Below the pieces are notes generated by a model. The model was not told where the DNA came from. It saw only the letters and a program-made list of their open reading frames with translations, and searched no databases. Positions 4,288-36,170 of a stretch of DNA of 64,000 nt are shown here, piece by piece. The stretch is from NCBI GenBank assembly GCA_029881255.1, contig JAOUMY010000001.1:310001-374000 (forward strand). Reading direction: 5' to 3'. The DNA comes from Gammaproteobacteria bacterium (GTDB taxonomy: Bacteria > Pseudomonadota > Gammaproteobacteria > S012-40). Numbering within the stretch: the first letter of the stretch is position 1; each line of letters opens with the position of its first letter. The position numbers and the translations under genes were made by a program.

Positions 4288-5580
4288 TTGTCTCGTGACT
4301 ACCAACACATCAATCCCTACATCCAGGCCCTGCTAAATGATATCGGACCTGAAAAACTCCACCAGCAATTATCCCCCAAGCATCATGAATCGCCACCACA
4401 CATCGCTCACCGGCCTAATTGCGACATCGACGGTGTCAATGCACGATGGTGTCAGCTAAATGTCGATGAGCACGCCAAAGCACAGTTGTTAGATGCACAA
4501 ACTATCGCGCAACTACCGGTATTCGAACACAACATTGAAAACCTTATCGGAACAGTAAAGTTACCTGTAGGACTTGCCGGTCCGCTGCGTGTCAACGGAA
4601 TGTTTGCGCAAGGTGATTATTATATCCCCCTGGCCACAAGTGAAGCGGCCCTGGTCGCATCATATAGTCGTGGTGCGGTATTAATCAGTAAGGCCGGGGG
4701 TTGTTCGTCAATGTTACTCAGCGAGGGAGTTAGCCGCGCACCCGCGTTTGCATTCGCAAACATTATAGAAGCTGGCGAGTTTGTGCGCTGGGCAGTACAA
4801 CAGGTGGACACGTTTAAATCGATAGCAGAAACCACCAGTAGACACGCAAAACTGAGTGATATGCGTGTAACTGTCGAGGGAAATCATGTTTACCTCGGTT
4901 TTGAATATTTAACTGGTGATGCTGCTGGACAAAACATGGTGACGATTGCGACTGACGCAGTGGTACAACATATCGCGCAACACAGCCCGACTAAACCGCA
5001 ATACTTTTTTGTCGAGGGAAACTTGTCCGGCGACAAAAAGGCCAGCGCCTTGTCTTTCCTGTCGGTACGCGGAAAAAAAGTCAGCGCTGAGGTCACCTTG
5101 CCGGAAAAACTCGTGCGTGCGGTTTTACACACCACCCCGAAGCAAATGGTTGACTACTGGCGCATGTCGGCGATCGGTGGTGTATTGAGTGGCACCATCG
5201 GTGTACAGGGACATTACGCCAACGGACTCGCTGCTTTATATATTGCCTGTGGCCAGGACGCCGCCTGTGTCTCTGAATCTGCGGTTGGTGTCACACGTAT
5301 GGAAGTGACCGACAACAATGAACTATATGCATCGGTAACATTGCCCAATCTTATCGTTGGCACGGTTGGCGGTGGAACGAAATTACCCAGCCAGAAGGCC
5401 TGTCTGGATATTATGGGTTTAGCGGGACATGGTCACGCACGAGCCTTTGCCGAGGTTTGCGCGAGTCTCGCCTTAGCCGGTGAACTTTCCATCATCGGCG
5501 CATTAACGGCGGGACACTTCACCAGCGCCCATCAACGACTCGCACGCGGTGATGCAACAGGGAAAGCGGACGATAAATGA
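4288..5580 (+). CDS. hmgR: Hydroxymethylglutaryl-CoA reductase (class I-like)
   Basis: A 430-residue HMG-CoA reductase, which reduces HMG-CoA to mevalonate with a nicotinamide cofactor. All four catalytic residues of the family can be placed: Glu119 in ATSEA, the lysine in GDKKAS (249-251), Asp324 in CGQDAAC and His415 in AGHFTSAHQ. ENLIGTVKLPVGLAGPL (84-100) and TGDAAGQNM are also conserved. These motifs resemble class I (archaeal/eukaryotic) more than the Pseudomonas mevalonii class II. There is no membrane domain. The start is TTG at 4288 behind an AAAGGA ribosome site. It opens a seven-gene coupled cluster; its stop overlaps the next ATG. No other mevalonate-pathway gene lies in the window, which is unusual because most gammaproteobacteria use the MEP route. 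Confidence 0.93.
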   Translation: MSRDYQHINPYIQALLNDIGPEKLHQQLSPKHHESPPHIAHRPNCDIDGVNARWCQLNVDEHAKAQLLDAQTIAQLPVFEHNIENLIGTVKLPVGLAGPLRVNGMFAQGDYYIPLATSEAALVASYSRGAVLISKAGGCSSMLLSEGVSRAPAFAFANIIEAGEFVRWAVQQVDTFKSIAETTSRHAKLSDMRVTVEGNHVYLGFEYLTGDAAGQNMVTIATDAVVQHIAQHSPTKPQYFFVEGNLSGDKKASALSFLSVRGKKVSAEVTLPEKLVRAVLHTTPKQMVDYWRMSAIGGVLSGTIGVQGHYANGLAALYIACGQDAACVSESAVGVTRMEVTDNNELYASVTLPNLIVGTVGGGTKLPSQKACLDIMGLAGHGHARAFAEVCASLALAGELSIIGALTAGHFTSAHQRLARGDATGKADDK

Positions 5581-6479
5581 ATCGATGGTGGATATATCAA
5601 CGTGAACGATTTCCGCTACTTGCGCACAGCCTGTTAATCCTGGTTTTTAGCGCCTCCGCTGTCACGTACTCGATAATGATTTCAGAAGGAAGTCGCGAGT
5701 TTGCGTGGAGCGCATTGGCACTTTCATTTCTGTCCAGCCTGATTTTTTTTATGTTGCTGCGTATCGCCGATGAGTTTAAGGACTATGAAGACGATCTCGC
5801 CTATCGACCCTATCGCCCTGTTCCAAGAGGACTGGTAAGTCTAAAAGAACTGGGTGGCATTGGCATGCTCATTATTGTTGTGCAACTTGCGGCCGCAATC
5901 GTGTATCAACAAAAGCTTTTACCTTATTTGATTTTTACCTGGATCTATTTTGCGTTAATGAGCAAAGAGTTTTTTGTGCATGAGTGGTTAAAACGTCATG
6001 CACTGGCTTACCTTTTTAGTCATATGTTGATCATGCCCTTGATCGCCTTGTATGCAACCGGCTTCGACTGGATACGCACTGATGCTGTACCGCCCCAGAA
6101 CATTATCTTTTTTCTTGCACTGAGCTTCGTCAACGGCATCGTGTTAGAGATAGGACGCAAGATACGCGCGCCTGAAAGCGAGGAGACCGGCGTTGAAACC
6201 TATTCCTTTTTGTGGGGCGCACACGTCGCGGTTTATGCATGGATTGCGACGATATTGATCGCACTTCTTATCGTCGCGCTTGCGGGTGCCGAACTCGATT
6301 ATTTGGTGCCGTCATTACTCTTAGGCGGAATGTTGTCAGTCACCTGCATTTCCGCCGGTTTAAAGTTTCTGAAAAATATGACGCCGGAATCGTCAAAAAA
6401 GATCGAAAATATGTCTGGCATCTGGATATTGATGTCATACCTGACGATCGGACTCATTCCTTATATTTGGCAACAATAG
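5577..6479 (+). CDS. UbiA-family membrane prenyltransferase
   Basis: A 300-residue polytopic membrane protein with about eight hydrophobic segments. The first aspartate-rich motif is at 65-73 (DEFKDYEDD) followed by RPYRPVPRG, and the second polar loop is at 191-210 (EIGRKIRAPE, then an acidic stretch). These are the places where UbiA enzymes bind Mg-diphosphate, although the sequence departs from the NDxxD consensus of UbiA proper. It should transfer a prenyl group from a prenyl diphosphate to an acceptor in the membrane. The ATG overlaps the HMGR stop (ATGA) and the next gene starts directly after its stop. The prenyl donor could derive from mevalonate made by the neighbour; acceptor unknown. 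Confidence 0.8.
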   Translation: MNRWWIYQRERFPLLAHSLLILVFSASAVTYSIMISEGSREFAWSALALSFLSSLIFFMLLRIADEFKDYEDDLAYRPYRPVPRGLVSLKELGGIGMLIIVVQLAAAIVYQQKLLPYLIFTWIYFALMSKEFFVHEWLKRHALAYLFSHMLIMPLIALYATGFDWIRTDAVPPQNIIFFLALSFVNGIVLEIGRKIRAPESEETGVETYSFLWGAHVAVYAWIATILIALLIVALAGAELDYLVPSLLLGGMLSVTCISAGLKFLKNMTPESSKKIENMSGIWILMSYLTIGLIPYIWQQ

Positions 6480-9134
6480 ATGAAGAATAGCTATTTCCTC
6501 TTTCCATCGCTGCAGGATGATACTTCGAGATACGGCGGCAAGGCCGCGGCGCTTAACCGTTTGTCACGCTACGGACTACCTATACCTGCCTGGTGCGTGG
6601 TCAGCACTCATGCCTTCTTCGATGCGCTATCAGATATTTCCATTGAGGAATTTCAACACCTGAGCGACTGGAAGAATATTGCGACCCAACTCGACAAACT
6701 TACACCACCCGCATCATTTGAAGATGAGTTACAGGAAGCACTCGAGCACAGCTTTCCGAACGAATGCCAGTACTTCGCAGTTCGTTCCTCTGCGGCAGAT
6801 GAAGACGGTAGCCAGCATTCCTTTGCCGGCCAATTGGAAAGCTTTTTATATATTCCACGTTCAGAGCTCGTAACACACATCATAAAAGTATGGCGTTCTG
6901 GATTCAGTGAACATTTATTGCGCTATCGACGTGAGCGGGGACTTGAAGGCTCGCCATCACCTCCTGCGGTATTGATTCAACAAATGTTACGGGCAGAAAC
7001 CGCCGGTGTTGCCTTTGGCGCCGATCCAGTTAGTGGACGCCGTGATGTTTCCGTCATTTCAGCTGTTTATGGGCTGGGTCATATACTGGTGTCGGGTGAT
7101 GTCGATGCAGACAGCTATCGCATTGACCAGCAGGGCAAGGTGTTAGAACAGACGGTGTGTACCAAAACGCACGCATACCAATTTGATGAACAGACACGCC
7201 AGATTGCTCAAACACCGGTTGCAAGTGACCTGAAGAACGTCGCCTGCCTCAGACCACCGCAAATATCAGAGATTCAGACCCTATTAGGGCGCGTAAACGA
7301 GATTTTTCAGCGTCCACAAGATATCGAGTGGGCGTATGAGAATGGAAAACTCTTTTTACTCCAGTCTCGTCCAATTACGTCTCTCAGCGCCATGCCAGAC
7401 CCGGGAGGCGAAACCCGCATCTGGGACAATAGCAATATCGCCGAAAGCTATAACGGCGTAACCACACCGCTAACATTTTCTTTTGCCCGCAGTGCGTATG
7501 AGGAAGTTTATCGTCAATTCTGCCGCCTCATGAGCGTACCCGCAAACACCATTAATTCCTGCGGCAATGTGTTTCGCAATATGTTGGGGCTGATACAGGG
7601 GCGTATCTATTACAATTTGATCAACTGGTATCGACTACTTTCCCTACTCCCCGGCTTCAAGATGAACCGTCGTTTTATGGAACAAATGATGGGAGTGAAA
7701 GAAGGAATACCTGACGAGTTCATCAACATAGAAAAGCCCGGATCAGCGGAGAAATTTTTCGATAGCGTGAGATTTCTGCGCACGCTGCTAATGCTGTTTT
7801 TTAATCATCTTAGTTTACCCAAAAAAATCGATGCGTTTTACCAACGCCTTAACCGTGCGCTCGCTCTTAGCAGCGAGGAATTGAAACGACAGCACCTAGA
7901 CGAATTGGCCAAACACTATCGCGAACTGGAGGCAGCGTTGTTGACGCGTTGGGATGCTCCCTTGATCAACGACTTTTATGCCATGATTTTTTACGGTGCG
8001 CTCAAAAGTCTCTCGAGCAAATGGTGTAATGACGAGGGCGGCAATTTACACAATGAACTATTACAGGATCAGGGCGGTATTATTAGTGCCGAGCCTGCAC
8101 AACGGGTTTGTGAAATGGCGGCGCTGGTACAAGGCCAACAGCAGCTGATTGAAACTCTGGAGGCTGTCACGCCCTACAATATCGAGCAGTCACTTTCCGA
8201 CTGGCCGGAGTTTTACACGCTTTATTCGGCTTATCTGCGCAAATTTGGTGATCGCTGCGTCGATGAATTAAAACTCGAGAGTGAGACGCTCAATGACAAT
8301 CCTCTCTCACTCATACGTTCCGTCGTCGCACTCGCTCGACGTGATCCACCGGTTACCCCCAATTCAGAATCGAAAAAAAACAACAATGAACGATGGAAGG
8401 ATCACATAGGAAACAAGCCGATCAAACGACGCCTGTTTGCCTGGGTTTTACGCAATGCGCGAGCGCGTGTACGAGATCGGGAAAATCTGCGCTTCGAGCG
8501 CACCCGCGTATTTGGTCGCGTGAGGAGCCTATTTGTCGAGATCGGTAAGCGACTTTATGCGGAAGGTGTTTTGCTGCATCCACGCGATGTCTTTTATCTC
8601 AGCGTCGAAGAAAGTCTGGGGTTCATCGAAGGAACGGCCATTTCCACCCAGTTGGCGGAACTCGCGCAACTGCGGCGCAGAGAGTTTGAACACTATTCTA
8701 CACAGGCGGTGCCTGCAGATCGTTTTGATACCAAGGGCGCTGTTTATATCGGCAACTCTTTTGTTCCACCACACCAGGCAAGCTTTGATCAACACGCTTC
8801 GCAACATGCCGGTACCGGTTGTTGTCCCGGCATTGTTCGCGGCAGGGTCCGCGTCATCACTGATCCACGCAGTCAGACACTTGAGGCAGGCGAAATCCTG
8901 GTCGCGGAACGCACCGATCCAGGTTGGATTATGTTGTTCGCCTCTGCCTCCGGTTTATTGGTCGAACGCGGCAGTCTGTTGTCTCACGCAGCTATCGTTG
9001 CCAGGGAGATGAGTATTCCGGCGATCGTCGCGATTGAGGATGTAACAAAGTGGTTAAAGAGCGGAGACCTGGTCGAGTTCGACGGCACCACAGGAAAGAT
9101 CTGGAAGCTAGAGGAAGCAGAACATGTCGAGTGA
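6480..9134 (+). CDS. PEP-synthase/rifampicin-phosphotransferase-like enzyme
   Basis: An 884-residue dikinase-fold enzyme. Residues about 1-310 form the ATP-grasp domain (YGGKAAALNRL near 18, FAVRSSAADEDG near 98, and DIEWAYENGKLFLLQSRPI at the end). Residues about 315-750 are a helical substrate domain starting WDNSNIAESYNGVTTPLTFS. The C-terminal swivelling domain carries the phosphohistidine His836 in GSLLSHAAIVARE. This order and length match rifampicin phosphotransferase rather than true PEP synthase, which has a TIM barrel. Such enzymes move the beta-phosphate of ATP through His to a hydroxyl of a small molecule. The ATG follows the UbiA stop without a gap, and the end overlaps the next gene by 11 nt. 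An antibiotic-resistance role is possible, but its place in a lipid-type cluster suggests a biosynthetic alcohol substrate. Confidence 0.82.
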   Translation: MKNSYFLFPSLQDDTSRYGGKAAALNRLSRYGLPIPAWCVVSTHAFFDALSDISIEEFQHLSDWKNIATQLDKLTPPASFEDELQEALEHSFPNECQYFAVRSSAADEDGSQHSFAGQLESFLYIPRSELVTHIIKVWRSGFSEHLLRYRRERGLEGSPSPPAVLIQQMLRAETAGVAFGADPVSGRRDVSVISAVYGLGHILVSGDVDADSYRIDQQGKVLEQTVCTKTHAYQFDEQTRQIAQTPVASDLKNVACLRPPQISEIQTLLGRVNEIFQRPQDIEWAYENGKLFLLQSRPITSLSAMPDPGGETRIWDNSNIAESYNGVTTPLTFSFARSAYEEVYRQFCRLMSVPANTINSCGNVFRNMLGLIQGRIYYNLINWYRLLSLLPGFKMNRRFMEQMMGVKEGIPDEFINIEKPGSAEKFFDSVRFLRTLLMLFFNHLSLPKKIDAFYQRLNRALALSSEELKRQHLDELAKHYRELEAALLTRWDAPLINDFYAMIFYGALKSLSSKWCNDEGGNLHNELLQDQGGIISAEPAQRVCEMAALVQGQQQLIETLEAVTPYNIEQSLSDWPEFYTLYSAYLRKFGDRCVDELKLESETLNDNPLSLIRSVVALARRDPPVTPNSESKKNNNERWKDHIGNKPIKRRLFAWVLRNARARVRDRENLRFERTRVFGRVRSLFVEIGKRLYAEGVLLHPRDVFYLSVEESLGFIEGTAISTQLAELAQLRRREFEHYSTQAVPADRFDTKGAVYIGNSFVPPHQASFDQHASQHAGTGCCPGIVRGRVRVITDPRSQTLEAGEILVAERTDPGWIMLFASASGLLVERGSLLSHAAIVAREMSIPAIVAIEDVTKWLKSGDLVEFDGTTGKIWKLEEAEHVE

Positions 9135-10227
9135 AATCTCTCAACATGCGGATTTTAGTGAAATACGCTACGCCCAATGTTGGGAGGACGCGGACATTCT
9201 GCTTCAGGCCTTACGCATACAGCCGGGAGATACCTGTTTATCTATCGCCTCTGCAGGGGACAACACGCTGGCGATGTTGTCATGTAGCCCAGCCAAGGTA
9301 ATTGCGTTGGATCTCAGTCACGCGCAACTGGCATGTCTGGAGTTGAGAGTCGCGGCCTATCGCAGTCTACAACACCACGAGCTATTGGAGCTCATCGGCT
9401 CCGTAGCGAGCACACAACGACTATCTCTCTATCGTCGGTGTCGCAATGCGCTGCCTACATGGTGTGTTGAGTTCTGGGACACGCGCCCGAATGATATCCA
9501 GAATGGTATAGGCACGATCGGAAAATTTGAGCATTATTTCGAGTTGTTCCGCAAGCGTGTGCTGCCGCTCGTACATAGACGCAAACGTATTTCCGAATTG
9601 TTAGAGGCCAAGTCGGTTGTGCAGCGAGAACGCTTTTACCAACACACCTGGAATAACTGGCGCTGGCGTCTGCTTTTTAGAATATTTTTTTCCCGTCGGG
9701 TGATGGGTAGCAAAGGTCGCGATCCACGCTTTTTTCACTATGTAGAGGGCAGCGTTGCCGAACGCATACTGCAACGCACACGCTATGCGCTTACCCAGCT
9801 CGACCCCTCGCAAAACCCCTACTTGCAATGGATACTGCTCGGTCAACACCAGCAAGCCTTGCCGTATGCATTACGAGAAGAGCATTTTGAATCCATACGT
9901 AATAATCTCGACAAACTTACGCTACACCCGATGTCGATAGAAGATTATCTGGCAAAGCATCCACAGGAAAGAATCGACTGTTTTAATCTCAGCGATATAT
10001 TCGAATACATGTCTGAAGAAAACTTTCATCGCCTGCTGGACATTATCATTCAACATTCTAATCCAGAGGCAAGACTGGCTTACTGGAATATGCTGGTTCC
10101 ACGTTCACGTCCACAGAGCCTCAGCGACAGGTTACACGCGAACGAGACATTGGCCAGCGAGCTATTTTCGCAGGACAAGGCGTTTTTCTATAGCCGCTTT
10201 ATCGTCGAAGAAGTCTCGCAGCAATGA
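9124..10227 (+). CDS. DUF3419 protein, BtaA-like SAM 3-amino-3-carboxypropyl transferase
   Basis: A 367-residue protein of the DUF3419 family, whose known member BtaA transfers the 3-amino-3-carboxypropyl group of S-adenosylmethionine to diacylglycerol on the way to betaine lipids. The family signature YAQCWEDADIL is at 16-26, and SIASAGDNTLAML near 40-52 is the SAM-binding loop, followed by VIALDLSHAQLACLELR. A basic stretch lies near 140-200. There is no membrane helix. It overlaps the upstream gene by 11 nt and the downstream ATG by 4 nt. No BtaB-like N-methyltransferase is present in the window, so the product need not be a betaine lipid. The acceptor may be a lipid hydroxyl made by its neighbours. 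Confidence 0.8.
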   Translation: MSSEISQHADFSEIRYAQCWEDADILLQALRIQPGDTCLSIASAGDNTLAMLSCSPAKVIALDLSHAQLACLELRVAAYRSLQHHELLELIGSVASTQRLSLYRRCRNALPTWCVEFWDTRPNDIQNGIGTIGKFEHYFELFRKRVLPLVHRRKRISELLEAKSVVQRERFYQHTWNNWRWRLLFRIFFSRRVMGSKGRDPRFFHYVEGSVAERILQRTRYALTQLDPSQNPYLQWILLGQHQQALPYALREEHFESIRNNLDKLTLHPMSIEDYLAKHPQERIDCFNLSDIFEYMSEENFHRLLDIIIQHSNPEARLAYWNMLVPRSRPQSLSDRLHANETLASELFSQDKAFFYSRFIVEEVSQQ

Positions 10228-11555
10228 ACATCGGATTAAAAATTGTCTTTTTTCTGCTTTTGCTTGTTGGCTACCTGCTTGTAGTTAAATTGCTTGCCAG
10301 ACGATTCCAGTGGCACCCAGAGCTGTCGCGTAAAGCCGTACATATCGGCATGGGTTGCGTCACGCTTAGCTTTCCTTTTGTTTTTTCGCAGGCATGGGCG
10401 GTGGCCGTGTTAACCGGCATTTCCGCAATCCTGTTATTTCTGATTAAAAAGCTACCTATACTCCAGCGCAATCTCGGTAGCGCACTACACGGAGTGAAAC
10501 GAGACAGTTATGGTGATTTCTATTTTCCGCTCGCTGTTGCCGCCAGCTTCTATCTGGCCAAGGGCGATACCACGCTCTATATGATACCGATATTGATACT
10601 CACCTTTGCCGACGCCATGGCCGCGCTTATCGGCGTCTTTCTTGGAGAGACACGCTTCAAGACTTCTGTCGGCGAAAAAACGGTTGAGGGTTCACTAGCG
10701 TTTCTGTTTACTGCCTTTCTATGCAGTTTTTGCTATCTGGTCATTTTTACCGACTTTGATGTCTACACCAGTTTGCTGGCGTCCACACTATTGGGCATTG
10801 TTATCATGCTGGTCGAAGCCTTCTCCTGGGACGGAATCGACAATCTATTCGTACCCATAGGCTCATTGTTTCTCATCCGCGAATACCTGCATCTAAGTCA
10901 CGAGACTCTTACACAACACATTGGCATACTGTTGTTGCTACTCCTCGGATTACTCTGGTGGCGCCGCTGGAGCACCTTGCGTAACGAGGCCATTTTACTG
11001 GCCTCAGTATTCGGCTATGTCGTGTGGGCACTGGCGGATTGGCGCTGGTTACTGGTAGCCCTGGTAACAATACTCAGTTATCCGCTATTAACCCCGGCGC
11101 GTGAAGATATACAGCAGCGTATACACGGTATGTCGGCCATCATCAGTGTTACTGCCACAGGTACATTCTGGCTTTATTTTTTTCGCATACTGGAATACCC
11201 AACGCTTTTTTTTCTTTTTTCCCTCGGATTTGCCACGCATCTTTCCATCATTCTTTTCGTCAGACATTTACGTATAAGGCCTCGACTACACCGGGGTATA
11301 TTAGCCATCATTTGCGCAACCAAGAGCGGGATACTTATTATGGGATTGTATCTGGTACTGGACTGGCAAAAAGATACAGCCTCGCTGTTTTATACTTTGA
11401 TTAGCTTTCCGTTAATTTTTCTTGCGACATGGATGTTTTCTATGGATCAGACAAATATCGATGAGGCACCAGCCGACAAGGACCGTTGGCTGAGACAATC
11501 TACGATAGTCGGATTGGCCACGATAGTCGGTATAACACCCTTGGTACTGTTTTAA
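10224..11555 (+). CDS. Phytol/dolichol-kinase-like membrane protein with extra C-terminal membrane half
   Basis: A 443-residue polytopic membrane protein. Residues 1-215 carry the marks of the CTP-dependent phytol/farnesol/dolichol kinase group related to phosphatidate cytidylyltransferases: SRKAVHIGMG near 35-44, TFADAMAALIG near 131-141 and GEKTVEGSLAF near 152-162. These enzymes phosphorylate isoprenoid alcohols using CTP. The second half, about 230-443, is another set of about seven hydrophobic segments not expected in the kinases, so this looks like a fusion. The ATG overlaps the DUF3419 stop and the GNAT gene begins 1 nt after its own. A role in making or salvaging prenyl phosphates for the UbiA enzyme is a reasonable inference. 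Confidence 0.72.
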   Translation: MNIGLKIVFFLLLLVGYLLVVKLLARRFQWHPELSRKAVHIGMGCVTLSFPFVFSQAWAVAVLTGISAILLFLIKKLPILQRNLGSALHGVKRDSYGDFYFPLAVAASFYLAKGDTTLYMIPILILTFADAMAALIGVFLGETRFKTSVGEKTVEGSLAFLFTAFLCSFCYLVIFTDFDVYTSLLASTLLGIVIMLVEAFSWDGIDNLFVPIGSLFLIREYLHLSHETLTQHIGILLLLLLGLLWWRRWSTLRNEAILLASVFGYVVWALADWRWLLVALVTILSYPLLTPAREDIQQRIHGMSAIISVTATGTFWLYFFRILEYPTLFFLFSLGFATHLSIILFVRHLRIRPRLHRGILAIICATKSGILIMGLYLVLDWQKDTASLFYTLISFPLIFLATWMFSMDQTNIDEAPADKDRWLRQSTIVGLATIVGITPLVLF

Positions 11556-11556
11556 A

Positions 11557-12570
11557 ATGAACGATGAATTAAGTATCCGCGAACTTTCTCACTCGGACCT
11601 CGAGCACTATAGGTTTGCCTATGGGCTATCGGGGATATCAAAAACTCAAATCGAATCAGATAAACCCCAACTCACACTGGGCATATTTAACGCCGCCCAG
11701 GAAATAGAGGCCCACGCCTCGGCATGGTGGACTAACACACCAAAATTGAATAGCCAATCCAGCGGACTCATCGGCCATTATGCCGCGGCAAGTGCCACAG
11801 CGGCCCATCTACTCATACACCATATGGAGAAAGTGCTACAGCAACAGCAGTGCGCCTATTGTATTGCTCCGATGAACGGAAACACCTGGAGGAGCTATCG
11901 TTTCACTACAGAACTCGGTGACCATGCACCTTTTTTTCTCGAACCCTATACACCGCCTGCCTGGGCTGAGCAATTTCAGACTGCAAACTATTCAGCCCTG
12001 GCCCATTACACTTCCTCTCTCGCTGAGGATATGAGCATTCGCGATGAACGGATTCCAAAAATACGCCAACGCTTGCAGCCACTCAAAATCCATTTTCGAC
12101 CTATTCAGCTGGAAAATTTTCAACATGATTTACAACACATCTACAACTTATCAGTCGCGTCGTTCAAACACAATTTTCTATACACCGACATCGATTTCGA
12201 GTCTTTCAGTCAACTCTATATTCCGGTACGTCAATACATAAAACCCGAATTGACCTTGTTAGCATTTGATGGCGATATTCTGGTAGGATTTATTTTCGCG
12301 ATACCTGACTATTTACAGCAAGGCAAACACGATACCTTTATTATTAAGACCGTCGCTATTTCACCGCTGCGTAAATACGCTGGCCTTGGGGCGCTTCTCG
12401 TCGATCAACTTGTCGATAAGGCGCAACAACTAGGTTACCGCCACGCCATACACGCCCTGATGCACGACAGCAATAAGTCTCTGGTACTCAGTCACCGATA
12501 TGGGAGACCAATACGCGGATATACCTTGTTCGTAAAACATCTGCAGACGAACACAGGTATCGCGCAATGA
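11557..12570 (+). CDS. GNAT-family acyltransferase
   Basis: A 337-residue soluble protein. The C-terminal half has the GNAT fold: the acyl-CoA loop region TVAISPLRKYAGLGALLVDQLV lies near 265-286, preceded by LLAFDGDILVGFIFAIPD. The N-terminal half has CIAPMNGNTWRSYRF near 102-116, a pattern I associate with a particular group of double-length GNAT-like proteins. It probably transfers an acyl group from acyl-CoA to an amine or hydroxyl. The start is 1 nt after the kinase-like gene and the end overlaps the ligase start (ATGA). An acceptor amine could be the aminocarboxypropyl group installed by the DUF3419 enzyme; this is speculative. Confidence 0.75.
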   Translation: MNDELSIRELSHSDLEHYRFAYGLSGISKTQIESDKPQLTLGIFNAAQEIEAHASAWWTNTPKLNSQSSGLIGHYAAASATAAHLLIHHMEKVLQQQQCAYCIAPMNGNTWRSYRFTTELGDHAPFFLEPYTPPAWAEQFQTANYSALAHYTSSLAEDMSIRDERIPKIRQRLQPLKIHFRPIQLENFQHDLQHIYNLSVASFKHNFLYTDIDFESFSQLYIPVRQYIKPELTLLAFDGDILVGFIFAIPDYLQQGKHDTFIIKTVAISPLRKYAGLGALLVDQLVDKAQQLGYRHAIHALMHDSNKSLVLSHRYGRPIRGYTLFVKHLQTNTGIAQ

Positions 12571-14147
12571 ATGTCGCTGAAATACTCCTGCAACAAACGA
12601 AAACGCGAGCGAATGAAGCGGTTCTTATCAGTTATCAGGGAAAGCAGACACGGTTGACATACGCTGAGCTCGATCATCAGAGCGCTTGCGTAGCCAGCCT
12701 GCTCCAGCAGCAAGGTATCAAGGCGGGTGACGCGGTATTGATCTTTGTGCCCGTTTCCATCCCTCTCTATGTATCGCTTATTGCCTGTTTTAGACTTGGG
12801 GCGATTGCCATGTTCATTGATCCGGGCATGGGTAAAACGTATATCGATAATTGTTGCCGCATATTCCCACCCAAGGCATTTATTGGCAGCGCCAAGGCAC
12901 ATTTACTACGCATTACCACGCGTTCATTACGAAATATTCCCGTTAAATTGCACACAGACCATTGGATACCGTTTTCCATATCATTTACACGCGCGCGTAT
13001 GTTTAATCCCCTGGCTCACATTGCAGCTGGTGGAAGCGAACCCGCGTTGCTAACCTTCACCAGCGGTAGCACAGGCCGGCCTAAAGCTGCAATGCGTACA
13101 CACGATTTTCTACTAGCACAGCATCACGAAGTCGTTAAAACCCTGAACGCCAACATCGGCGAACGCGATCTCACTACCTTTCCCATATTTGTTTTGAGCA
13201 ATATGGCGGCAGGAGTATGCTCTTTGATTCCCGATGGCGATCTGCGCAAACCCGGAGAAATCGACCCGGCGCCTATCTCCGAAATTTTGCAGTCAGAGAA
13301 ACCACAACGCCTATGCGCCCCTCCCGCCTTGCTGGAGAGAATTGCGAATTACTTTGTTCTGGAAAACAGGACATTGACGGCCAAGACGCATATTTTTACC
13401 GGCGGCGCGCCCGTGTTTCCACACCTGATTAAAAAATTGGCAGACATCAATCCACAAGGACTCATCACTACCGTCTATGGGTCTACCGAAGCAGAACCGA
13501 TTGCACATCAATTGTGGCAGGAAGTTGAGGAGAACGATCTGCACCACATGCTAAATGGCGAGGGACTACTGGTTGGAAAACCTGTCTCTAATATCAAGTT
13601 GCGTATTGTTGATTTTGAGTGGGTTAAACAACAATCACACAGTGATTTGGCGACACTTGATCGTCATAGCTGTAGTCAAGGACAAGCGGGAGAAATTCTG
13701 GTAACAGGATCACACGTATTAAAGAGTTATTATCTCGGCAAAGGCGATGGTGAAACAAAACGCGATATAAGCGGCGAAATCTGGCATCGAACCGAGGATG
13801 CTGGATATTTAGATAAAGATGGGCGTTTGTGGTTACTAGGTCGTGCCTCAGCGCGAATAGAGGATGAGGCCGGTGTGCTATACCCATTTGCCGTCGAGTG
13901 TGCCGCACTCATGGTAGACGGTGTGAACCGGGCTGCGCTTATGCAACATCATGGAGAACGAGTGCTGATTTGCGAGACGAATAACAAGACATCCCAAGAC
14001 TTGTCAGAAGTTCTGCATCAACAACTGAGTTGGGCTCAACTGTCACGCATACTGTTCATTAAAAGAATGCCTGTCGATCCACGTCATAACTCAAAAATAC
14101 TGTACCCCGAACTTCGATACTGGTTAGACAAAGAAAATCCTGCTTAA
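12567..14147 (+). CDS. AMP-dependent ligase, OleC/PRK09274-like
   Basis: A 526-residue adenylate-forming enzyme. The P-loop FTSGSTGRPKAAM lies near 162-174, YGSTEAEPIA near 304-313, the hinge region WHRTEDAGYLDKDGRLWLLGR near 405-425, and the catalytic lysine is in PVDPRHNSKI near the C-terminus. The EAEP-type motif and the RHNSKI ending resemble OleC, the beta-lactone synthetase of the olefin pathway, more than ordinary acyl-CoA synthetases. The usual P-loop PKG is PKA here. No OleA, OleB or OleD is nearby. It is the last gene of the coupled cluster. It probably activates a carboxylic acid as an acyl-adenylate; whether it forms a CoA ester, amide or beta-lactone cannot be told. Confidence 0.8.
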   Translation: MNVAEILLQQTKTRANEAVLISYQGKQTRLTYAELDHQSACVASLLQQQGIKAGDAVLIFVPVSIPLYVSLIACFRLGAIAMFIDPGMGKTYIDNCCRIFPPKAFIGSAKAHLLRITTRSLRNIPVKLHTDHWIPFSISFTRARMFNPLAHIAAGGSEPALLTFTSGSTGRPKAAMRTHDFLLAQHHEVVKTLNANIGERDLTTFPIFVLSNMAAGVCSLIPDGDLRKPGEIDPAPISEILQSEKPQRLCAPPALLERIANYFVLENRTLTAKTHIFTGGAPVFPHLIKKLADINPQGLITTVYGSTEAEPIAHQLWQEVEENDLHHMLNGEGLLVGKPVSNIKLRIVDFEWVKQQSHSDLATLDRHSCSQGQAGEILVTGSHVLKSYYLGKGDGETKRDISGEIWHRTEDAGYLDKDGRLWLLGRASARIEDEAGVLYPFAVECAALMVDGVNRAALMQHHGERVLICETNNKTSQDLSEVLHQQLSWAQLSRILFIKRMPVDPRHNSKILYPELRYWLDKENPA

Positions 14148-33454: not shown

Positions 33455-35896
33455 TTAGCGAAAGAATTTTCGCGTACTGAGCGGCGCTGTTGAACCTATG
33501 GCTGGTATCCACTGAGCCACCGTATGACATTGATTGCATGAATTGGATGAAGGAACATGCGTCACGCTTTTCCCTATCGCGAGCACACCATTGTGACAAT
33601 TGATACAAAGCCCAAAAACCTCATCGTGGTCGACACGAATAACAGGTACCCAGGTTAATGGCGAGTGGCAAGCCGCGCAGTTATTACTGGTCGGTATATG
33701 TGACGCCGGCAATGGCGTCGTTCCAGGTGGCGCAGGTGTAGGCGCAGGGACTGGCGTCCCGCCCGGCAGGGCGTTTGTTGGATTAAACCAGGTTATTGTA
33801 CTGTGACATGCCTGACAATCCTGGCGAATACCAACTGCGATATGTGTCGCTGGCGAGATATGACAACTTTCACAAACACCAAGTACCTCATAGTGATCTA
33901 CATTAATAGGCACCCATGTCATTATCGAGTGACAGGCATTACAAACATCCGTGGTTGAGATATGGCCAGGAAATTTGCCCGTTGCAACGGTACCGTTGTG
34001 ACAAGCGACGCACTGACCAATAACCTCGTTGTGATCAACGGAGATCACTGGCATCCAGGCCATTGTGCTATGACAGGCGCCACAGTTTTCGGTCGCTGCG
34101 ATATGCTGTGGAGGTTTACCCATGGCAACAATATTGTTATGACAGCTCAGACATTCTCCCATCACCTGAGTGTGGTCTACGGTAATTGCCGGCATCCATG
34201 TAGTGGTCGTGTGACAAGCGTCACAGGCGTCAGAGGCGATAATATGTGTTATATTTTTTCCAGACGCTGTGACACCGTTGTGACAATCCATGCACGCACC
34301 AATAACATAACTGTGATCGACCATCGTAAGCTGTCCATCTGGACTATGGCATGCCAGACAATCATTTGTGGTAGGAATATGATTCGCTGGTAGAGGCTGA
34401 GTCGGATCAAAAGTGGAAGGCGGAGCCGTCGGCAAAACCTGTCCCGATGTCGCCCAAATATCAAAATTCAAACCTTGTGATGACACCCGCGATTGTTTCC
34501 AAATAACACGGCGAGCACCGCCTGTCTCTTGAAGAATTGACGCCGATTCAACAAATCCGTTTTCGATGTATTCAACAATCTTTTCGGGATTCGACCATAG
34601 GTTATTGCTTTCGAGATGTGCACTGTATAGCGTGCTGGTCTGCGCACTGTTCACTACCCAGGTAGCAGAAAGCATTTCGCCACTCAACGACAAGCTTGTC
34701 TCAGCGATAAAACTTCCTACAACACCGACTGGGCCTTTCTCACTTTGCACGGGAGGACTGATACTCTCCGGCGATTGCCAGTTAGCGTTAGAATACCGAC
34801 TGGTTCGGACCAGAGAGAATACCTGGGTACCTGCAACAACGTCTTCTACCCAGGCCAATGCCGCGTTTCCATTTTTGTCACGCGCAAAGCTAAACGGTAC
34901 GCGTAGCGAATTGCAAACATTTGCCGCCGGACAAATCATCAGCATGGGCTGTCCCCAGGTAGTCCCGCGTAATTCAGACCGATATAGTGAGTCGCCTCCA
35001 ACATCATCGATATTCTGAATGATGAGTTCCATGCCGCCATCAGCGCGATTAAAAAGCGCTAACTGAATGAATTCACTCGTAGGGGAAAAGACTCCAGTCG
35101 GAAATTCCAGCGGATATAGAACACCGGTGTTCATATCAAATACGGCAGCACCGAGATTTACGGTGGCATTCGCCCCTTTTTCCGCCCACGCAATATATGC
35201 CTGCCCTGATGAGGTGAACACCGGCCTGGACATCATCTCTAAGCTAGCTTCTGAACGTAAAAGGGAAACAGGCGCAGACATAGACTGCCCCCAAATGTGG
35301 AGAGTAAAACCCGTGGCGGTATTTTCGTGTGAAAAAATGATAACTTGATCGCTTGGCGTAAGCAGGGGATAGGTTGCCGTTCCCGGCAAAATCATTTCCG
35401 CCGGAGTCCATATACCGTTCAACCTGCTCCAGTAGACGTTTCCTTGAAATGTCCAACTCGCGATAGGTGTAGCCGGATTTTCTCCGAAGACAAATTTCGG
35501 TAGCGTCGCATTAATCGATTGATTTAACGGAATTGGATTGCTTGATGTAAAACTTCCGGCACCATCCGCTAATAGCGCCGTAATCTTGCCAACGCTATCG
35601 GGGGCAGGCGTGGTCTGCTGTCCCTCATGTAAACGCCAGGCAATAATACTTGCATTATTTCCTGGCGAAAGCTCAGGCCCATGCAGATAGCCAACGCTAT
35701 TGGCAGGAAGCACGTCGTTTCCCAATAATACCGGTGAAGACCAGCTACTAAGATCGCGGCTTCTAACGACTTGCGTAGTATGAGAATTATTTTGCGTAGA
35801 ATTGATTTTACGTGAAAAATCTGGAATTTGTTCTGCGCATGAGGTCCATAACAGCACAGTAAAAAGCATCAAGCCGATGGCGGATTTTCTATCCAT
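33455..35896 (-). CDS. Multihaem c-type cytochrome with N-terminal propeller-like region, probable lipoprotein
   Basis: An 813-residue exported protein. MDRKSAIG, a hydrophobic core and Cys20 in WTSC suggest a lipoprotein signal, although Trp at -3 is unusual. Residues about 40-500 contain repeated SAxIAWR/ALAWVED-like strands, resembling a beta-propeller. From about 515 to the end there are 12 CxxCH haem-binding motifs in alternating modules (CxACHS-W-P-VDH-V-G-CxxCHN-A-GK-H). A proline/alanine/glycine-rich linker interrupts the array after the ninth. It should carry c-type haems outside the inner membrane and move electrons, possibly to or from an extracellular partner. ATG 35896 follows GGGAG; an upstream in-frame start at 35911 is less likely. 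No cytochrome maturation gene is adjacent. Confidence 0.8.
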   Translation of the reverse strand: MDRKSAIGLMLFTVLLWTSCAEQIPDFSRKINSTQNNSHTTQVVRSRDLSSWSSPVLLGNDVLPANSVGYLHGPELSPGNNASIIAWRLHEGQQTTPAPDSVGKITALLADGAGSFTSSNPIPLNQSINATLPKFVFGENPATPIASWTFQGNVYWSRLNGIWTPAEMILPGTATYPLLTPSDQVIIFSHENTATGFTLHIWGQSMSAPVSLLRSEASLEMMSRPVFTSSGQAYIAWAEKGANATVNLGAAVFDMNTGVLYPLEFPTGVFSPTSEFIQLALFNRADGGMELIIQNIDDVGGDSLYRSELRGTTWGQPMLMICPAANVCNSLRVPFSFARDKNGNAALAWVEDVVAGTQVFSLVRTSRYSNANWQSPESISPPVQSEKGPVGVVGSFIAETSLSLSGEMLSATWVVNSAQTSTLYSAHLESNNLWSNPEKIVEYIENGFVESASILQETGGARRVIWKQSRVSSQGLNFDIWATSGQVLPTAPPSTFDPTQPLPANHIPTTNDCLACHSPDGQLTMVDHSYVIGACMDCHNGVTASGKNITHIIASDACDACHTTTTWMPAITVDHTQVMGECLSCHNNIVAMGKPPQHIAATENCGACHSTMAWMPVISVDHNEVIGQCVACHNGTVATGKFPGHISTTDVCNACHSIMTWVPINVDHYEVLGVCESCHISPATHIAVGIRQDCQACHSTITWFNPTNALPGGTPVPAPTPAPPGTTPLPASHIPTSNNCAACHSPLTWVPVIRVDHDEVFGLCINCHNGVLAIGKSVTHVPSSNSCNQCHTVAQWIPAIGSTAPLSTRKFFR

Positions 35897-36170
35897 AGTT
35901 TGCTCCCACACAAGCCATTATTGATGTTAAAGGTCTGGATGTGCCTTGCATCAAGTATTATTTTTAAATGCGAATTATAATTATCGCGTCGTTTATCATG
36001 ATTATTCTTAGTGAACTGAAACTGAGAATATCGAACCCAAATTTGGGCTGAGGCGTCTTTCAAGACATAGGAAAATATATTGCCTTAAGGAACAGATATA
36101 AGAAGACGGGGAATTCGAATTTCTGAAGATAGCGGTGTATTTTACTGCCGAAAGATTCGACATATAAAGT

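Follow-up and report, generated by a model that had tools for sequence, protein, structure and literature searches.

An adenylate-forming ligase from a sister clade of OleC, encoded in a seven-gene cassette that probably makes an unusual lipid

OleA, OleC and OleD make β-lactones and OleB decarboxylates them, while clusters without OleB yield β-lactone products, according to one published account (PMC7064751). OleC, from oleABCD and lipstatin-type oleACD clusters, shares with the ligase described here the ANL fold, an RHN(A/S)K motif and a set of alignment columns, and OleC enzymes are its nearest relatives in our trees. The ligase differs in having YGSTEAEP in place of YGATExLP and, across its clade, mostly TGxPKA, in occupying a clade of its own, and in its partners, which are GNAT, DUF3419, UbiA and PEP-synthase-like proteins, with no OleA in the same genome. 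The overall fold and adenylation core are also those of 4-coumarate:CoA ligase and other acyl-CoA or aryl-acid AMP ligases, but at about 20% identity and with an A10 motif of the form (S/T)GK where the ligase has RHNxK. With respect to the partner proteins, the betaine lipid pathway of BtaA and BtaB has in common with the locus the Pfam family PF11899 (DUF3419), to which BtaA belongs; however, Pfam identifies no BtaB methyltransferase among the seven proteins, and a GNAT protein and the ligase are present instead.

The ligase ORF closes a compact operon of seven genes (4288-14147, all on the + strand) in the window, by which we mean the whole 64,000-nucleotide stretch of gammaproteobacterial DNA that was analysed. 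The order is HMGR, UbiA, PEPS, DUF3419, 'DolK', GNAT and ligase (LIG), and adjacent genes either overlap by 4-11 bp or lie no more than 1 bp apart. The ligase ORF is intact, with an ATG start and a 4 bp overlap with the preceding stop. The features are as follows.

4288-5580, +, class I HMG-CoA reductase (HMGR); PF00368, 6.4e-118
5577-6479, +, UbiA-family prenyltransferase-like membrane protein; PF01040, 1e-10
6480-9134, +, PEP-synthase-like enzyme (PEPS); PPDK_N and PEP-utilizers domains, 798.6 bits to NF004881 (cutoff 883)
9124-10227, +, DUF3419 protein; PF11899, 7.9e-72, 243 bits (cutoff 28.2)
10224-11555, +, 'DolK' membrane protein, 443 aa; no match in the Pfam scan, CdsA-like fold in the N-terminal half of the model
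11557-12570, +, GNAT acyltransferase-like protein directly before the ligase; PF00583, 2.1e-6
12567-14147, +, OleC-sister adenylate-forming ligase (LIG), 526 aa; Pfam AMP-binding, 1.2e-46
13059-13088, +, ligase P-loop TSGSTGRPKA, read from the sequence
13476-13499, +, ligase YGSTEAEP in the A5 region, diagnostic of the cassette-ligase clade by sequence and clade counts
14082-14099, +, ligase RHNSKI, carrying the A10 lysine and common to OleC, by sequence and clade counts

A sequence search of the PDB gave no convincing relative for DUF3419, DolK, GNAT or UbiA, the best match for UbiA being chlorophyll synthase (E 0.09), and PADLOC gave no match for the three of the seven operon proteins that were scanned. 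The DUF3419 protein is 23-29% identical to its matches on Rhizobium, Sinorhizobium and Shinella plasmids, and PEPS is more distantly like the prodigiosin ligases PigC and RedH and the rifamycin phosphotransferases (Rph). Elsewhere in the window, an 818-aa ORF with many CxxCH motifs (33455-35911, -) resembles a multihaem cytochrome by eye.

The motifs of the ligase (YGSTEAEP, residues 304-311; RHNSKI, residues 506-511) were counted across 81 cassette ligases, four others with frame problems having been dropped beforehand, 10 OleC sequences and 18 other AMP-ligases, where 'OleC' denotes rows over the NF006754 cutoff or with OleA/OleB/OleD-like neighbours (L052, L053 and L056, by eye from translations). 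YG[ST][TS]EAEP is found in 77 of the 81 cassette ligases and is absent from both other groups (0/10, 0/18); YGATExLP is found in all 10 OleC sequences and nowhere else (0/81, 0/18). RHN[AS]K joins the two, occurring in 75/81 cassette ligases, 10/10 OleC sequences and none of the 18 other AMP-ligases, and 15 further columns are likewise common to LIG and OleC and rare in the other AMP-ligases. The A10 lysine lies within RHxxK in 80 of the 81 cassette ligases, and the (S/T)GK form of A10 is confined to the other AMP-ligases (12/18, against 0/81 and 0/10). The PKA in the P-loop, to which the initial annotation had drawn attention, is a real difference from OleC, TGxPKA being present in 63/81 cassette ligases, 0/10 OleC sequences and 0/18 other AMP-ligases. 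Glu310 and Arg177 are invariant across the cassette ligases, at positions where OleC has Leu and Tyr. YGSTEAEP, RHNSKI and PKA are features of a clade and not chance occurrences. The predicted structure of the ligase (mean pLDDT 90.7) has the full two-domain ANL fold, and a fold search with this model returned CoA ligases, A-domains and amide bond synthetases tied at Z of about 39-41; the ligase fold therefore does not name the reaction. No solved OleC occurs among the 60 listed of 151 sequence matches, or among the fold-search matches listed.

The best NCBIfam model for the ligase is NF006754, at 381-382 bits and below the cutoff of 478, followed by two olefin β-lactone synthetase models at 223-226 bits. 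When NF006754 was run at E 1e-70 on 249 genomes of the phylum, nine matches were obtained, eight at 705-821 bits and the window ligase at 382. In a quick maximum-likelihood tree built from 61 rows (35 of the 81 cassette ligases, 13 OleC including three duplicates, 11 of the 18 other AMP-ligases and 2 unlabelled), the three groups are fully separated and the cassette ligases are sister to OleC, with SH-aLRT supports of 98 for LIG, 100 for OleC and 99 for the others. A smaller quick tree (43 rows) agrees with the first, although the branch joining the fused variant L054 to the ligase clade has a support of only 85; it omits twelve ligases, the duplicates among the OleC rows and three of the six rows that were longest, and keeps L054, L005 and L012. 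On these sequence comparisons, the ligase belongs to the OleC lineage without being an OleC itself, and falls in a separate sister clade. Of the initial proposal that it belongs to the OleC branch, the kinship stands (sister clade, RHN(A/S)K) and the membership does not, being ruled out by the sub-cutoff NF006754 score of 382, the tree placement outside the OleC clade and the missing YGATExLP. An identity as an ordinary acyl-CoA synthetase, a placement that the same annotation had named as part of what would refute it, is rejected by phylogeny, with the ligase apart from FadD/Acs-type rows in both quick trees. Deinobacterium chartae, one of the control genomes, also matches NF006754 below the cutoff; it may carry a clade-type ligase and so offer a culturable source of one.

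The ole partner genes were reported missing at the outset, and for OleA this was confirmed genome-wide: the best match in the window's genome reaches 33 bits, compared with 732-898 bits in three ole positive-control genomes. It lies in a 326-aa frame that also weakly matches HMG-CoA synthase and appears to be FabH-like. For OleB and OleD, a scan of the operon gave no Pfam matches of either type among its seven genes. Another cassette genome has an incomplete match to OleA (G320:C1:3901591-3902214; 81 bits, 36% identity).

The operon recurs widely as a cassette. A named-genome scan with an alignment of seven ligase orthologues as query gave at least 553 confirmed relatives, from which 80 were kept; these represent about 16 phyla as judged from record titles, and many are MAGs. 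All seven genes are found in 35 of the 80 named loci (about 11 phyla, again per record titles), many of the remainder being contig-limited, and of the full loci 26 have the same order as the window, whereas GNAT-LIG precedes HMGR in 8 and HMGR comes last in 1. GNAT and LIG are neighbours on the same strand in all 70 named loci that hold both, with a median of 9 bp between the matched stretches, and their adjacency persists even in loci with a rearrangement of the other cassette genes. UbiA and PEPS (48/48) and DUF3419 and DolK (47/47) are also neighbours in every named locus holding both, the corresponding figures being 51/53 for PEPS-DUF3419, 35/36 for HMGR-UbiA and 43/51 for DolK-GNAT. The in-frame stop codon in the matched stretch of one cyanobacterial cassette GNAT (L063 9056-9997) was also recorded.

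Within the window's family, a ligase orthologue occurs in 1 of 12 other genomes. A class-level sample of 369 genomes yielded 15 ligase matches at E 1e-40, 7 of which were counted as clade-type by tree and neighbourhoods, and DUF3419 matches in 8 genomes at E 1e-30, of which 7 reach at least 49% identity (cassette-type). Six genomes, including the window's own, hold both the clade-type LIG and the cassette-type DUF3419 (hypergeometric 1.5e-11, or 6.6e-10 without the own genome, a statistic that ignores relatedness). All ten genomes with an apparently lone LIG locus hold DUF3419 elsewhere, L130 among them owing to a contig break only, and LIG lies apart from the other cassette genes in four cyanobacterial genomes. 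One genome (G138) carries a clade-type LIG of 34% identity (L050 9372-10928) with no GNAT or DUF3419 nearby and no DUF3419 match, and another (G013) carries PEPS and DUF3419 with no LIG on that contig stretch and a weak AMP-ligase match in the genome; the cassette can therefore come apart. A full cassette resides on plasmid unnamed3 (137 kb) of Roseinatronobacter sp. S2 (NZ_CP121116.1; L174 1-8507 and L177 3-716), where HMGR spans the record start; culturable carriers include this strain and Alkalilimnicola ehrlichii AK92 (L070). Because the distribution is patchy, the cassette is carried on a plasmid and phyla are mixed in the tree, it appears to spread horizontally. A core consisting of UbiA, PEPS, DUF3419, GNAT and the ligase is the best explanation of the composition of the cassette.

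Variant loci depart from this arrangement. In G249 (L054 2716-13998), an HMGR-APH-type kinase fusion, a CDP-alcohol phosphatidyltransferase-CarS-like fusion and a formyltransferase are encoded, together with an alpha/beta hydrolase-ligase fusion followed by UbiA and PEPS; no DUF3419 was found within the 18 kb read. The cyanobacterial loci L087 and L068 are without HMGR and DolK and have an upstream protein, radical SAM by Pfam in L087; a 342-aa cyanobacterial membrane protein upstream of UbiA has no Pfam name. In a planctomycete (L110), the cassette is accompanied by a sulfotransferase, a P450 and an MFS transporter. CarS, the CDP-alcohol transferase and the CdsA-like fold of DolK would point to membrane-lipid chemistry.

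HMGR is distributed together with one form of DolK. Among 86 loci examined, 52 have UbiA, PEPS, GNAT and LIG; of these, the 40 with HMGR include 37 with a long DolK, 2 with a short one (L071, L120) and 1 with none (L089, at a contig end), whereas the 12 without HMGR include no long DolK, 6 short and 6 with none, in a count that ignores shared ancestry (for L119, the contig is too short to judge HMGR absence). The C-terminal half of DolK (10860-11555) is thus confined to loci with HMGR (37/37), and gave no Pfam match and no convincing fold match. In the DolK model (pLDDT 92.3), residues 42-224 match CdsA (4q2g) at a middling level (Z 8.7, rmsd 5.2, 167 aligned). Aligned along 6hr7, the HMGR keeps the catalytic Glu, Lys, Asp and His positions of class I enzymes, as read by eye. 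The best explanation is that HMGR and the long DolK form a coupled accessory module of the cassette.

We tentatively favour a reading, about which we are not far from evenly divided, in which the ligase converts a carboxylic acid to its adenylate for use by the neighbouring GNAT, and GNAT acylates a lipid bearing the amino-acid group that DUF3419 has attached. We propose this route because of the family functions and the strict gene pairing. A lipid alcohol would be built with UbiA and PEPS, and DUF3419 would attach to it the aminocarboxypropyl group from SAM, whose amine stays free; the BtaA-type activity of DUF3419 is assumed here from its Pfam family. The ligase would then activate a carboxylic acid, possibly a 3-hydroxy acid, as the acyl-AMP, and the adjacent GNAT, or the ligase itself, would place the acyl group on the amine. 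The product is probably an unusual lipid; its lipid nature, the formation of an acyl-AMP and the hand-over to GNAT are what the gene content suggests. GNATs normally use acyl-CoA, and therefore a hand-over of acyl-AMP would be unusual.

Two other readings keep the partner genes but change the chemistry of the ligase. Its shared descent with OleC makes lactone formation possible, and the ligase could be an OleC-like β-lactone synthetase acting on a 3-hydroxy acid other than mevalonate, the lactone either acylating an amine or being the product. Besides the sister-clade relationship and the shared RHN and 15 further columns, this is consistent with the diverged variant L054 at the base of the LIG clade, in which the ligase is fused to an alpha/beta hydrolase near a formyltransferase, the hydrolase being weakly like the OleB-like protein of L056 in a two-sequence comparison (21% identity, E 9e-7). 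However, YGATExLP is absent in 81/81 cassette ligases, the score lies below the OleC family cutoff, and there is no OleA in the window's genome (a second cassette genome, G320, has the 81-bit partial match); we consider this reading unlikely. Ordinary acyl-CoA synthetase chemistry, with the ligase making an acyl-CoA that GNAT uses, would fit the adjacency of the two genes, as GNATs commonly use that substrate, and the fold is equally near CoA ligases. It is at odds with the placement of the ligase outside the CoA-ligase rows in both trees and with the (S/T)GK form of A10, found in 0/81 cassette ligases and 12/18 controls, and seems rather improbable.

Activation of mevalonate from the operon HMGR, the testable link put forward by the initial annotation, is very unlikely, although the HMGR lies in the same operon. 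Isoprenoid genes were searched in 14 genomes: the window's (G000), seven further G genomes, one of them the variant G249, and the genomes of six named loci; HMGR is missing from G611 and G612 in this set. A class I HMGR is shared with the mevalonate pathway, but in these cassette or variant genomes the MEP enzyme Dxr is over cutoff in 13/14, the window's included, whereas HMG-CoA synthase and mevalonate kinase are over cutoff in 0/14. The synthase cutoff is strict, being passed by 1 of 11 matching control genomes with archaea below it, and a diverged HMG-CoA synthase may therefore be missed; the best match in G000 (30 bits over 131 positions) falls in the same place as the weak OleA match. For mevalonate kinase (cutoff 163), G000 has no match at E 0.001 and G076 has a full-length match of 120 bits, below the cutoff, and HMG-CoA lyase is over cutoff in 5/14 genomes, not including the window's. 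The window's HMGR thus looks orphaned, with the MEP pathway present and neither HMG-CoA synthase nor mevalonate kinase over cutoff, and without the kinase mevalonate would need another fate. A review likewise describes most Legionella species as without a recognised HMG-CoA synthase, though the genus has been described as a user of the mevalonate pathway (PMC13001223). Against mevalonate as the acid, all ten tested cassette genomes without a local HMGR, several of which are MAGs and may be incomplete, have no HMGR match anywhere at E 1e-10, and the ligase is kept; four lone-ligase cyanobacteria have HMGR elsewhere in the genome. In addition, L124 (Acidimicrobiia) and L076 (Gemmatimonadota) have the same gene order with five genes 72-81% identical, yet L124 is without both HMGR and DolK while its ligase remains 74% identical, and HMGR tracks the length of DolK. 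Since the ligase is kept in HMGR-less cassettes, it is unlikely that it generally uses mevalonate from the operon HMGR as substrate; HMGR-plus cassettes could use a different acid from HMGR-less ones.

A search of an open-access literature library showed no paper on the seven-gene set among the entries listed. Returning to acylation of an amino-acid lipid as the preferred reading, a broader interpretation, which we regard as possible and hold with considerable doubt, is that the cassette encodes a mobile lipid pathway of many phyla, so far undescribed; that within the OleC lineage the ligase represents a new functional class, one that works by acyl transfer or uses a lactone to acylate an amino-acid lipid; and that the orphan HMGR serves no isoprenoid synthesis but produces or reduces a building block of that lipid in MEP bacteria. 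If true, an entire pathway for a lipid or natural product, common among environmental bacteria, would have been overlooked, the OleC lineage would be shown to have a capability besides lactone formation, and HMG-CoA reductase would gain a role outside isoprenoid synthesis, a role that the existence of HMGR-plus and HMGR-minus cassettes makes directly testable.
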